From NCBI GenBank assembly GCA_900556365.1, contig USOG01000009.1, positions 1 through 20,487 on the forward strand: DNA of 20,487 bases, in the 5' to 3' direction. Made by a program: the position numbers and the translations under genes. The stretch is from an uncultured Collinsella sp. Lineage in GTDB: Bacteria; Actinomycetota; Coriobacteriia; Coriobacteriales; Coriobacteriaceae. This document shows positions 17,176 to 19,820 of the stretch, piece by piece. Position 1 is the stretch's first letter, and the number at the start of each line of letters is the position of its first letter. Below the pieces are notes generated by a model. That model saw only the letters and a program-made list of their open reading frames with translations. It had not been told where the DNA came from and made no database searches.

Positions 17176-17205
17176 GGTGCCGCCTTTGACCTTGTGTGCC
17201 TATAT

Positions 17206-17235
17206 GAAAAAAGGCCCCAACTTGCGTTGGAGCCT
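17206..17235 (-). terminator. Rho-independent terminator of tRNA-Ala copy A
   Basis: On the minus strand AGGCTCCAAC and GTTGGGGCCT form a 10-bp stem with one G-T pair around a GCAA tetraloop, followed by six T. It lies about 15 bases after the tRNA 3' end and about 30 bases before the ABC-F start codon. Confidence 0.93.
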
Positions 17236-17250
17236 CATTCAATGCTCGGG

Positions 17251-17323
17251 TGGAGACGAGGGGGATCGAACCCCTGACCTCTTGACTGCCAGTCAAGCGC
17301 TCTCCCAGCTGAGCTACGCCCCC
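17251..17323 (-). tRNA. tRNA-Ala(GGC), copy A
   Basis: All arms fold. The acceptor is GGGGGCG with CGTCTCC, including the G3-U70 wobble pair that marks alanine tRNAs. The D-arm is GCTC/GAGC, the anticodon stem is CTTGA/TCAAG around loop CTGGCAG (anticodon GGC), and the T-arm is AGGGG/CCCCT. The bases after A73 read CCC, so the final CCA is not fully encoded. It is 73 bases without CCA. Confidence 0.97.
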
Positions 17324-17335
17324 GTGCGAAGAAGT

Positions 17336-17364
17336 ACTATACGGGAACTCCCCCGCCGATGCAA
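17336..17364 (-). promoter_or_regulatory. Promoter of tRNA-Ala copy A
   Basis: On the minus strand TTGCAT (17359-17364) and TATAGT (17336-17341) are 17 bases apart, with the -10 box 12 bases before the mature tRNA 5' end. Both boxes and the spacer length are preserved in copy B although the spacer sequence has changed. Confidence 0.8.
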
Positions 17365-17380
17365 GGACAATTTTGGAAAA

Positions 17381-17486
17381 ACTTTCGGCGGCGCGAGCGC
17401 GTATGCGGGACGGGCCCCAAGAACGAGGGGCCGGCGGCGTGGCCGTCGCCCTCCTTCCCGGCACCCGCCCGGGCACCCCCGGGGAC
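17381..17486. other. GC-rich intergenic stretch without a gene
   Basis: I see no coding signal. A perfect 6-bp GGCCCC/GGGGCC hairpin lies at 17413-17432. This stretch separates the tRNA-Ala copy A promoter from palindromic element 1 and has no clear similarity to the matching interval in copy B (18179-18274). Confidence 0.5.
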
Positions 17487-17656
17487 CTCCCGCCACGGAT
17501 GCGGCCCATCTACTACGTTTGGGCGGCATCCCCCGACCATGGCGTCACGGGTAAAAATAAAACCGCAGGTAGACGGCCTGCGGTTTTCGCGAAATACGGG
17601 GTATGGTCGAGGGGCCGGGGCTAAACGTAGTAGATGGGCCGGTTCCGTGGCGGCAG
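17487..17656. repeat. Long imperfect palindromic element 1
   Basis: Positions 17487-17520 and 17623-17656 are inverted repeats with 31 of 34 positions paired, including a continuous 19-bp match (17502-17520). Further partial pairing continues inward (for example CGACCAT with ATGGTCG). At the apex is a strong hairpin with T runs on both sides. The whole unit is about 170 bases. Element 2 at 18275-18436 shares its core but not its outer arms. I do not recognise it as a named repeat. Confidence 0.85.
17559..17587. terminator. Bidirectional terminator-like hairpin at the apex of element 1
   Basis: CCGCAGG (17563-17569) and CCTGCGG (17577-17583) form a perfect 7-bp stem with a seven-base loop, flanked by AAAA on the left and TTTT on the right. 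On the minus strand the tract after the stem is TTTTATTTTT, which makes termination of minus-strand transcripts likely. It would insulate tRNA-Ala copy A from transcription arriving from the tRNA at 17775-17850. Confidence 0.75.
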
Positions 17657-17730
17657 CATCGCGCACAGCCGACCGAGGGCGCTCGGAAGTGAGCAGACAC
17701 GCTATTTGTATGTGAAAACCACTGCGATGT

Positions 17731-17765
17731 AAAAGAAAACAGACCAGACATATTGCCTGGCCTGT
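17731..17765 (-). terminator. Rho-independent terminator of the CAT-anticodon tRNA
   Basis: On the minus strand ACAGGCCAG (17757-17765) pairs with CTGGTCTGT (17739-17747) in a 9-bp stem with one G-T pair, followed by TTTTCTTTT. It starts ten bases after the encoded CCA of the tRNA. Confidence 0.92.
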
Positions 17766-17774
17766 TGAAAAACC

Positions 17775-17850
17775 TGGTGGGCCCTCCGGGATTCGAACCC
17801 AGAACCCAGGGATTATGAGTCCCCTGCGCTAACCGTTGCGCCAAGAGCCC
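17775..17850 (-). tRNA. tRNA with CAT anticodon, probably tRNA-Ile2 (lysidine type)
   Basis: The acceptor GGGCTCT pairs with AGGGCCC, the D-stem is GCGC/GCGC, the anticodon stem is GGGGA/TCCCT around CTCATAA (anticodon CAT), and the T-arm is CTGGG/CCCGG. A73 is followed by an encoded CCA. The GCA-GG-GACTCATAATC region resembles E. coli tRNA-Ile2, whose C34 is converted to lysidine by TilS so that it reads AUA. Elongator tRNA-Met has the same loop and is the alternative; initiator Met is excluded by the paired first base and the loop context. Confidence 0.9.
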
Positions 17851-17874
17851 TTATAAAGTAGTTGTCGCGGTTGG

Positions 17875-17895
17875 GTTGGAAGAACTACTTCCAAC
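17875..17895. repeat. Perfect 8-bp inverted repeat upstream of the CAT tRNA
   Basis: GTTGGAAG (17875-17882) and CTTCCAAC (17888-17895) pair around a five-base loop, about 25 bases before the tRNA 5' end. No T run follows on either strand, so it is not a normal terminator. It could be a 5' leader hairpin or a protein-binding site. Confidence 0.5.
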
Positions 17896-17940
17896 GTTAT
17901 GAACCACGTCGTGAAATACTACCATGCACGCGGCACCCGT

Positions 17941-17973
17941 TCAACGCACGATCTTGTCGACCAGGAGGATCAT
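17941..17973 (-). pseudogene. Duplicated 5' fragment of the ABC-F gene
   Basis: Copy B of the duplication keeps the ribosome-binding site, the ATG and the first eight codons of the ABC-F gene, then leaves the match. The reading frame ends almost at once, giving a ten-residue product [10 protein letters not shown]. This shows that the duplication started from the arrangement at the intact ABC-F gene. It has no expected function, but could still be translated if transcribed. Confidence 0.85.
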
Positions 17974-18003
17974 GGTGCCGCCTTTGACCTTGTGTGCCTA
18001 TAT

Positions 18004-18033
18004 GAAAAAAGGCCCCAACTTGCGTTGGAGCCT
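18004..18033 (-). terminator. Rho-independent terminator of tRNA-Ala copy B
   Basis: This is identical to the copy A terminator: a 10-bp stem, GCAA loop and six T on the minus strand, about 15 bases after the tRNA. Confidence 0.93.
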
Positions 18034-18048
18034 CATTCAATGCTCGGG

Positions 18049-18121
18049 TGGAGACGAGGGGGATCGAACCCCTGACCTCTTGACTGCCAGTCAAGCGCTC
18101 TCCCAGCTGAGCTACGCCCCC
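18049..18121 (-). tRNA. tRNA-Ala(GGC), copy B
   Basis: The sequence is identical to copy A across all 73 bases, with anticodon GGC and the G3-U70 identity pair. Its promoter boxes and terminator are intact, so it is probably a functional second gene and not a relic. Confidence 0.96.
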
Positions 18122-18133
18122 GTGCGAAGAAGT

Positions 18134-18162
18134 ACTATACGGGAACTCGGACGACGATGCAA
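18134..18162 (-). promoter_or_regulatory. Promoter of tRNA-Ala copy B
   Basis: TTGCAT (18157-18162), a 17-base spacer and TATAGT (18134-18139) lie on the minus strand. The spacer differs from copy A at four of 17 positions, while both boxes are unchanged. Confidence 0.8.
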
Positions 18163-18178
18163 GGACAATTTTGGAAAA

Positions 18179-18274
18179 TTTCGCAGTCGCGGCGCGGGCC
18201 GCCATCCGCTCAACGGCCGTCTTGCCGGCGCCAGGCCCATTACCGGGGCCAATCGCGCTCCCGCCGACCCGGCG
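18179..18274. other. GC-rich intergenic stretch without a gene
   Basis: There is no coding signal, RNA gene or clear terminator here. It lies between the tRNA-Ala copy B promoter and palindromic element 2. Its length is similar to the equivalent interval beside copy A, but the sequence does not align obviously. Confidence 0.45.
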
Positions 18275-18436
18275 ATTTCAAAACCATGCCGGTTTACGGG
18301 ACCAGGCCGGGAACCCACGAGCATGCCGTCATCGGCAAAATTAAAACCGCAGGTAGCCGACTTGCGCATTCCGTGAAATGCAGGGCATGGACGGCCGTTC
18401 CGGGTCCAGCCCCGTAATCCGGCATAGTTTTGAAAT
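18275..18436. repeat. Long imperfect palindromic element 2
   Basis: Positions 18275-18300 and 18411-18436 are inverted repeats with 24 of 26 positions paired. The core (18322-18356) matches element 1 (17538-17572) at 30 of 35 positions, and the central hairpin survives as GCAGG/CTTGC without the right-hand T run. The apex is displaced from the arm centre by the same small distance as in element 1. Total length is 162 bases. The outer arm sequence is unrelated to that of element 1. Confidence 0.8.
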
Positions 18437-18488: not shown

Positions 18489-19646
18489 CTAATTTCCGAT
18501 TTCCAACCAGTTGCACAAAACATTTGCTCGCAGTCGCGTCTCGGCGGATTTCATTGCCTCAGTTTTGGCTTTATAGCGAATCCCTAAACGGTCGCAGACA
18601 CTTCTGACTATGGTGTCTATCAGCTTTGAATCGTTGAGCATATCGTGAGTCACCAGGAATACATCGAATCCCATGCTCTGCAACGCAGTCATGCGCTCCG
18701 CATCGTGGTCAAGTATTGCACCTGAGCCATGAATGACCTCACCTTGGATCTCGATAATAACTGCCTTCATTAGGATTGGGTTTACGATCACGATGTCGCC
18801 GTAGCAGACCTTTTGGCCTGCGATGCTTTGGGCTGCCACGGATAGAGGGGTTAAATCGTTGAGGTACACGTATCTGAATCCTGCACCACCTAGACGTCGA
18901 GAACGACTTAGAAGCAGGACCCCAGCGACCTCGAGTGGAGACGCAGCAATGCCGATAACCTGCTGAGTGGCATCATAAAACTGCTTTCCCCACATTTGAC
19001 TTTTGACCTTGTCGGCGAATCGATGCAGATCGCTTAGCTCGATGAGCGGCTTTCTCATCCAAAGAGAAGTGCCTTTGAGTTTCGTAACCTCTCTTCCATC
19101 CTCATGCTTGTTCGTTTGGCCTTCTTTATCTGTGGCCTTTACGGTTGCGCGGGCGTAAACTCGTTTCCAAGGAACCTCGTCTTCGCCTTCTCCAAGTTCG
19201 AACAAATCCTGCGTGCTGGAATTGCGATTCTCCTCTACCGCCATTTTTAACTGCATTTCGGCAGCGGGAGCCGGCTCGAAAACAGAAAACCAACCGCATA
19301 GTTCGTACATAGCCAGTACGAGATCTATTTGGGACACAAAGCGTGTCATAGTAAATAACGTGTTAAGCGGATTGGTGACACTGAAGCCTAAATTAGTGTC
19401 GATTGTTGTGCCGGCATTCGATGCCCCTTCCCAGCGAATAGTGGAGCGCAGTCCCGAGTGGTGATTACAACAACCTGGCGAAGCAACAGCGATAATCGGG
19501 GTCTTGAGGACTTCGGTTACAAAAGGGGCTTGGGATAGAGCTCGCCAGCCGTCTTCGGAGTTGGGCAGGCGCGGGTAGAGATTGCGCACCTGCGGTGGGC
19601 AGCGCCAGTAGCGAAATGCGGTGTTTGCGCAGACGATCTCGTCCAT
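18489..19646 (-). CDS. Lone protein with C-terminal Vsr/DUF559-like (PD-(D/E)XK) nuclease motif
   Basis: The 385-residue product is not assigned to a characterised system. The C-terminus resembles a Vsr/DUF559-type nuclease: YGDIVIVN (Asp284), VIIEIQG (Glu299 and Gln301), then DHDAERMTALQSMGFDVFLVT, the helix-strand pair that follows the active site in that fold. The N-terminus (TAFRYWRCPPQVRNLYPRLP, later AMYELCG) resembles a group of Coriobacteriia proteins that I recall only loosely, sometimes compared with AbiEi-like proteins; this is inference. Base composition is lower in GC than the core genes, suggesting transfer. I chose the ATG at 19646, preceded by GGGGAGG; an upstream reading to 19754 lacks such a site. 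A promoter lies at 19677-19705. A role in defence is possible but not shown. Confidence 0.7.
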   Translation of the reverse strand: MDEIVCANTAFRYWRCPPQVRNLYPRLPNSEDGWRALSQAPFVTEVLKTPIIAVASPGCCNHHSGLRSTIRWEGASNAGTTIDTNLGFSVTNPLNTLFTMTRFVSQIDLVLAMYELCGWFSVFEPAPAAEMQLKMAVEENRNSSTQDLFELGEGEDEVPWKRVYARATVKATDKEGQTNKHEDGREVTKLKGTSLWMRKPLIELSDLHRFADKVKSQMWGKQFYDATQQVIGIAASPLEVAGVLLLSRSRRLGGAGFRYVYLNDLTPLSVAAQSIAGQKVCYGDIVIVNPILMKAVIIEIQGEVIHGSGAILDHDAERMTALQSMGFDVFLVTHDMLNDSKLIDTIVRSVCDRLGIRYKAKTEAMKSAETRLRANVLCNWLEIGN

Positions 19647-19676
19647 ATGGGCCTCCCCTAGTTTTGGCTGCGTGCC

Positions 19677-19705
19677 GTTATGTTTGCAGGTAGACCGATT
19701 ATCAA
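19677..19705 (-). promoter_or_regulatory. Promoter of the nuclease-like gene
   Basis: On the minus strand TTGATA (19700-19705) and CATAAC (19677-19682) are separated by 17 bases, about 30 bases before the ATG at 19646. This indicates independent transcription of the accessory gene. Confidence 0.55.
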
Positions 19706-19820
19706 TGGCGGCATCATGCCGGTAAGTACTGGAAGCTGACCAAATGCTGGCCAATAGCTTGACGTAATTCGCCTAAAGATCGCCGTGTGACACAAATCTG
19801 CTGGCAGGCGTTCTGGGGCC
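19706..19820. other. Intergenic stretch without a recognised feature
   Basis: I see no RNA gene, terminator or convincing coding frame here. Together with the neighbouring remnant it forms a gap of nearly 380 bases between the nuclease-like gene and tRNA-Val. It may be further decayed integrase sequence, but I cannot recognise motifs. Confidence 0.35.

Follow-up and report, generated by a model that had tools for sequence, protein, structure and literature searches.

A Collinsella family of palindromic intergenic repeats with a common centre and arms that differ between types as matched pairs

ERIC/IRU, Correia/NEMIS and Rickettsia palindromic elements are imperfect palindromes of 100-170 bp that lie between genes, occur in many copies and are restricted to particular lineages. 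The Collinsella repeats that we describe here are likewise intergenic imperfect palindromes of 100-170 bp, multicopy and lineage-restricted. In MITEs, the ends are the conserved part. REPs are mentioned in PMC8040213 and PMC7771070. Quasipalindromes are presented, in PMC8794818 and PMC8604942, as the outcome of a mutation process on existing repeats, in which template switching makes the two arms alike at the DNA level.

We analysed a stretch of 20,487 nt from an uncultured Collinsella sp. (contig USOG01000009.1; hereafter the window), in which two long palindromes lie at a tRNA-Ala locus (Table 1). We recognised no description of Collinsella repeats of this form in the open-licence literature.

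Two palindromes of one repeat family

Both palindromes lie where a sequence-only reading of the window had placed them, and its counts were right to within one base. Their outermost pairs match at 31 of 34 (palindrome 1) and 24 of 26 (palindrome 2) positions, as first stated; complementarity is 80% over the 54-nt arms of palindrome 1 and 77% over the 53-nt arms of palindrome 2. The offset is equal in the two, as had been claimed, with the core motif beginning 8.5 bases before the arm centre in each. The reported similarity of the cores also stands, with its count corrected: within the range scanned, the best ungapped 35-base match agrees at 29 positions, not 30. The outer arms are unlike between the two copies, as described (8 of 30 positions agree at the best small shift), but each turned out to represent a recurring type with cross-species conservation. 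With a few flanking bases included, folding z-scores against shuffles were -9.0 and -4.8 on the plus strand and -9.6 and -5.9 on the minus strand for palindromes 1 and 2, respectively, and 0 of 200 shuffles were as good in every case; folding alone does not tell which strand is the working one. A GC-rich stretch of 99 bp adjoins palindrome 1, and a 421-aa ORF on the minus strand (window 18489-19754), with no Pfam match at E 0.001, adjoins palindrome 2. In some species (L139, L140, L142, L143, L145, L147, L148), the tRNA-Met gene that separates the two tRNA-Ala copies has the reverse orientation.

Table 1. Positions of the palindromes, neighbouring features and sister-family copies (window coordinates unless G042 is given)
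Feature	Position	Strand	Detail
Direct repeat copy 1	17200..17380		181 bp, carries tRNA-Ala
tRNA-Ala (ggc), copy 1	17249..17323	-	
Stretch absent from relative G024	17393..17655		263 bp, both arms of palindrome 1 inside; window vs L146
Palindrome 1, arm type A	17487..17656	+	conserved arms GCCACGAAA..GGCCCATCTACTACGTTT and reverse complement
Core of palindrome 1	17530..17613	+	contains AAAACCGCAGGTAGA; core model R1, 86.0 bits, E 2e-21; the 33 model rows include a near copy of palindrome 1 (L016, G013, 99% similar across the palindrome)
Apex hairpin of palindrome 1	17559..17587	-	terminator-like in tRNA direction; consensus match only
tRNA-Met (cat)	17775..17850	-	
Direct repeat copy 2	17998..18178		181 bp, 98% identical to copy 1, carries tRNA-Ala
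tRNA-Ala (ggc), copy 2	18047..18121	-	
Palindrome 2, arm type B1	18275..18436	+	arms CAAAAC.ATGCCGG.TTACGGG.C and reverse complement
Core of palindrome 2	18314..18397	+	core model R1, 73.4 bits, E 4.1e-18; the 33 model rows include a near copy of palindrome 2 (L019, G037, 93% alike over the palindrome)
Family I copies	G042 1186825-1186989, 1555086-1555221, 1692653-1692791 and others		L350, L368, L375
Family III copies	G042 1280277-1280421, 1362265-1362391, 1905333-1905459		L355, L359, L386

Aligned copies from related genomes fall into arm types A, B1 and B2 and a hybrid, H, whose middle block is A-like and whose outer block is B-like. After removal of duplicates, 134 elements remained from 217 (71 A, 42 B1, 19 B2 and 2 H); these were selected for both arms matching a type, and arm conservation inside types is partly a product of that choice. 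Every member has a conserved centre of ~84 bases flanked by two mutually reverse-complementary arms. Within a type, both arms retain much the same sequence, and the centre is common to all arm types. It contains an inner inverted pair, CGACCAT/ATGGTCG, around AAAACCGCAGGTAGA, which is nearly invariant, even in copies whose hairpin partner has decayed. The earlier reading is borne out in that the two palindromes belong to a family in which arm sequence varies by type and the arms of each type pair with one another. Arrays are frequent, in which two palindromes are separated by ~90 bp that contain a second motif, GGGGACGGAGGAAAACGGATCATTTTGG, or variants of it. At one locus (L231-L251), a type A palindrome shares its intergenic gap with two further palindromic modules, AAGTTGCGGTGGAATA.. 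and TTTGGGACGGGGC.., which are stacked with it and vary from species to species. At another (L053 3600-12887, in G001), palindrome arrays flank a gene for a 2432-aa protein with 13 FctA stretches and a VWA domain; next to it are genes that encode a histidine kinase and a LuxR-type response regulator.

We searched 2.0 Mb of genome G042 with the core alone, using a model of 33 cores that has only 3 base pairs and is in effect a sequence profile. This gave 12 strong copies, two of them model rows (L056, L057), and three weaker ones, x3, x2 and x1 (E 1.6e-5, 5e-5 and 0.008, respectively), none of which is a model row; of the remaining rows up to E 1 (23 in all), three repeat a strong copy on its other strand and five lack arms. 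The weaker copies had first appeared in a scan for a 15-base core with up to 2 mismatches, which gave 30 matches versus 9 for the reversed motif. They carry self-complementary arms unlike A or B, with pairing scores of 19, 14 and 16 for x1, x2 and x3, against a baseline from 300 random intergenic positions with median 5, 95% at 11, 99% at 19 and maximum 25. These arms are private within G042 only; in relatives, x1-like and x3-like arms seem to be present at other places too (partial matches, 74-89% identity). In a pairing matrix of 10 of the 15 copies, a left arm pairs well only where the right arm is of the same type or a related one.

Good matches to palindrome 1 were found in 22 of 43 genus genomes, and to palindrome 2 in the same 22; the palindrome 1 search matched 28 of 98 relatives, from which we dropped six with one weak match each (G006, G026, G033, G034, G048, G052). 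In a collection of 84,980 species genomes, the exact type-A arm and core pattern matched 43 stretches, each with Collinsella in its title. Copies with paired arms are therefore present well beyond the window, and the family stands. As far as searched, it appears to be restricted to the Collinsella aerofaciens group, and to be non-coding and old. A phage origin was rejected, as neither phage records (palindrome 1 as query) nor viral contigs (exact type-A pattern) gave a match. Palindrome 1 matched two records in a plasmid collection, both of one C. aerofaciens strain. One of these, NZ_OY725714.1 (L208), is a 486-bp 'complete plasmid' that consists of a tRNA-Ala gene and half a palindrome ending at its centre; we rejected its reading as an excised circle in favour of a chromosomal fragment, most likely from an assembly break. 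Some contig ends in public assemblies coincide with these palindromes.

Palindromes gained or lost as whole units

Comparison of orthologous places revealed filled and empty sites. At the x3 locus, the whole 621-base query matched in five genomes (G042 itself, G043, G029, G005, G007). In seven others (G003, G008, G011, G024, G031, G037, G041), exactly query positions 238-395 are missing, with both arms inside; the flanks are contiguous without overlap, and there is no target-site duplication in these seven genomes. The same segment is missing within 3 bases in G036. The x1 locus is whole in 14 genomes, and ~225 bases are missing in G043, G029 and G039, replaced by 13, 13 and 23 other bases, respectively. 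In one further genome (G012:C1:684140-686093), the x1 locus is split, with query positions 1-316 and 332-651 separated by 1.3 kb, which would fit an insertion within the palindrome. For window copy 1, the matches that flank the missing 263 bp in G024 overlap by 2 bp, and the tRNA-Ala locus is without a palindrome between the tRNA genes in G024, G010 and G041. We conclude that at three loci (x3, x1 and window copy 1) the palindrome was gained or lost together with both arms. Since both arms sit inside the missing segment at each of these loci, we rejected the possibility that they are fold-back copies of flanking DNA there. At a further locus, an exact type-A arm is present in four of 21 genomes (G042, G019, G018, G013); by eye, G031 has a B2 palindrome, and G036, G024, G001 and G008, viewed in register, have neither. 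Most of the other loci examined have ragged junctions, where additional bases stand to one side or to both, and no regular target-site duplication is seen at the other empty sites.

Presence and absence at orthologous sites, together with several non-coding copies and loci per type, are what would be expected of a classical MITE, whose arms would be terminal inverted repeats for a transposase and whose types A, B1 and B2 would follow different partners. The arms are indeed conserved inverted repeats inside each type, among elements that were picked for intact arms. However, it is the centre and not the ends that is common to all types, the base-exact junctions at x3 have no target-site duplication, and searches of three genomes (G001, G042, G024) with arm-type patterns found no autonomous element with these ends. 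Pairs of arm-pattern matches in these genomes were spaced ~116-130 bp apart, with a single pair at 1.7 kb; unpaired matches, nearly all with 2-3 mismatches, also remained. The long pair, 1.67 kb in G001, was considered as an autonomous parent and rejected: it holds a Transposase_mut (IS256-type) gene that has inverted ends of its own and sits inside a hybrid palindrome. In the sequence of this insertion (L115 1090-2755; G001 1412089-1413754), TCGACATG can be read as an 8-base duplication. A crude motif scan for IS200/RAYT-like (Y1) proteins in 2.0 of the 2.3 Mb of G042 gave 8 ORFs that were unconvincing by eye. The earlier suggestion of a MITE-like element may still apply, given gain and loss as a unit, but neither a target-site duplication nor a partner enzyme was found where these were sought; we regard a classical MITE as unlikely.

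Pairing of the arms and placement of the copies

A long stem could also be kept by selection on a transcript, as a structured RNA or an RNase III-type processing signal. The folds are very stable, and the apex of copy 1 is terminator-like. Between types, the arms change together: with B1 and B2 pooled, free positions pair at.504 versus.439 in shuffles, and 0 of 2000 shuffles were as high, relatedness not being controlled. Inside types, the figures are.450 versus.428 for A (58 of 2000 shuffles as high),.386 versus.403 for B1 and.300 versus.315 for B2; near copies were dropped before shuffling, leaving 42 of 71 A, 20 of 42 B1 and 10 of 19 B2. Because free positions pair hardly or no better than in shuffles, neither template switching nor selection on the stem is clear inside a type; the arms change jointly between types and not position by position within one.

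Over 54 pairs in 134 elements oriented by the core, G.U (487) and A.C (538) are about equal. In the outermost 30 pairs there are more G.U than A.C mismatches (195:152; 109:80 after thinning of near copies), whereas inner pairs show the reverse (292:386; 150:203 after thinning). There is thus no clear sign of a single RNA strand overall, and the outer arms lean slightly that way; because of the excess in the outermost pairs, we weighed the RNA reading up slightly, and our best explanation down slightly. The core yielded no consensus fold, with a covariation term of 0. Rfam matched four tRNAs and nothing else in the window, in line with the sequence-only reading, which knew of no named family of this form, and it matched one tRNA only in a search for the sister families described below (7 of 100 G042 chunks); a known RNA family was rejected on these results. 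Taken together, the lack of a consensus fold, of an overall G.U bias and of more than slight covariation at free positions within types argues against the structured RNA that had been suggested, and we consider an RNA-level role distinctly unlikely.

In 2.0 Mb of G042, inverted repeats with a score of at least 20 within 260 bp number 139, against a single mirror repeat; at a score of 14 there are 331 and 18, respectively. A fixed centre with differing arms is found in at least two further G042 families, I and III, whose arms we chose by maximising complementarity, so that their high pairing is partly by construction. Family I (centre CTGCTCTACAGTCCTG..GTGCGGAACTCGCGA) has 26 centre matches in G042 and differing arms of up to 49 bp; several copies are fully paired. 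In 22 copies the arms are 22-49 bp long, and among their 715 pairs 693 are Watson-Crick, 5 are G.U and 6 are A.C. Some copies form inverted pairs ~200-280 bp apart. The family I centre was matched in 34 of 43 genus genomes. In family III (centre AACATTCCGCAGG..CGAGGACGTT), 352 of 355 pairs are Watson-Crick, from 13 of 14 centre matches. Among family I copies at orthologous places, at least two (L394 and L410) differ from their neighbours in both arms at once; single-arm mismatches occur too. The joint changes are what template switching between arms would do, and selection could also produce them.

All 15 core copies of G042 are intergenic by crude gene calls. Six lie between convergent genes, two of them sharing one gap, and no copy lies between divergent genes. 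G042 has 98 wide gaps (at least 150 bp) of the first kind and 122 of the second (p 0.009, with both copies of the shared gap counted). Such gene-end placement fits terminator-like use or mere tolerance. With 2 of the 15 core copies in 2.0 Mb of G042 at the tRNA-Ala locus, neither a link to tRNA genes nor the insulator role beside them that had been suggested for the window holds in general. A bidirectional transcription terminator or insulator at gene ends, which the placement and the minus-strand apex of copy 1 would suit (a G+C stem and then a T run, absent from the core of copy 2), is improbable in our view, as B-type cores retain AAAACCGCAGGTAGA with the apex hairpin degraded and the placement is also expected from selection against insertions at promoters.

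A DNA-level reading and its relation to described repeats

The reading that we favour, and to which we give slightly better than even chances, is that of a lineage-restricted family of palindromic intergenic repeats that work as DNA, MITE/REP-like, with the centre conserved instead of the ends. The element would act in hairpin or cruciform form, its stem supporting the conserved centre, and the centre would be the part recognised by a protein. It may spread, or may have spread formerly, as a MITE/REP-like non-autonomous unit without a visible target-site duplication, surviving mostly away from promoters. Template switching during replication may help to keep the arms complementary, as suggested most clearly by sister family I. 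A more speculative and rather doubtful extension is that these are mobile palindromes read through a conserved centre on a sequence-free stem: the arms would need only to pair, lineages could carry private arms, insertion would proceed without target-site duplication, and a single enzyme, cellular or mobile, would serve the independent families A/B, I and III in the C. aerofaciens group.

If the centre is what an enzyme reads, such repeats would represent a different recognition logic for small repeats. The 139 long palindromes in one genome of a common gut bacterium are material with which selection and template switching can be tested as sources of arm complementarity.

Among described systems, quasipalindromes corrected by template switching resemble the Collinsella repeats in that their arms are made alike at the DNA level, comparable to the both-arm changes of family I; PMC8794818 and PMC8604942 describe a mutation process on existing repeats and not a repeat family with a conserved centre.

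REP/BIME/REPIN elements are also intergenic palindromic repeats, often clustered, and an insertion sequence inside a palindrome is seen in Collinsella too; the Collinsella palindromes are four to five times longer. By comparison with ERIC/IRU, Correia/NEMIS and Rickettsia elements as generally described, the Collinsella family shares a centre and swaps its outer arms as matched pairs. Like MITEs, the Collinsella repeats are short and non-coding, have inverted ends and are present or absent at orthologous sites; unlike MITEs, they have no partner ends or target-site duplication where tested, on which membership fails, and their ends are not common to all types. MITEs conserve their ends, whereas the Collinsella repeats conserve the centre and exchange the ends as matched pairs.
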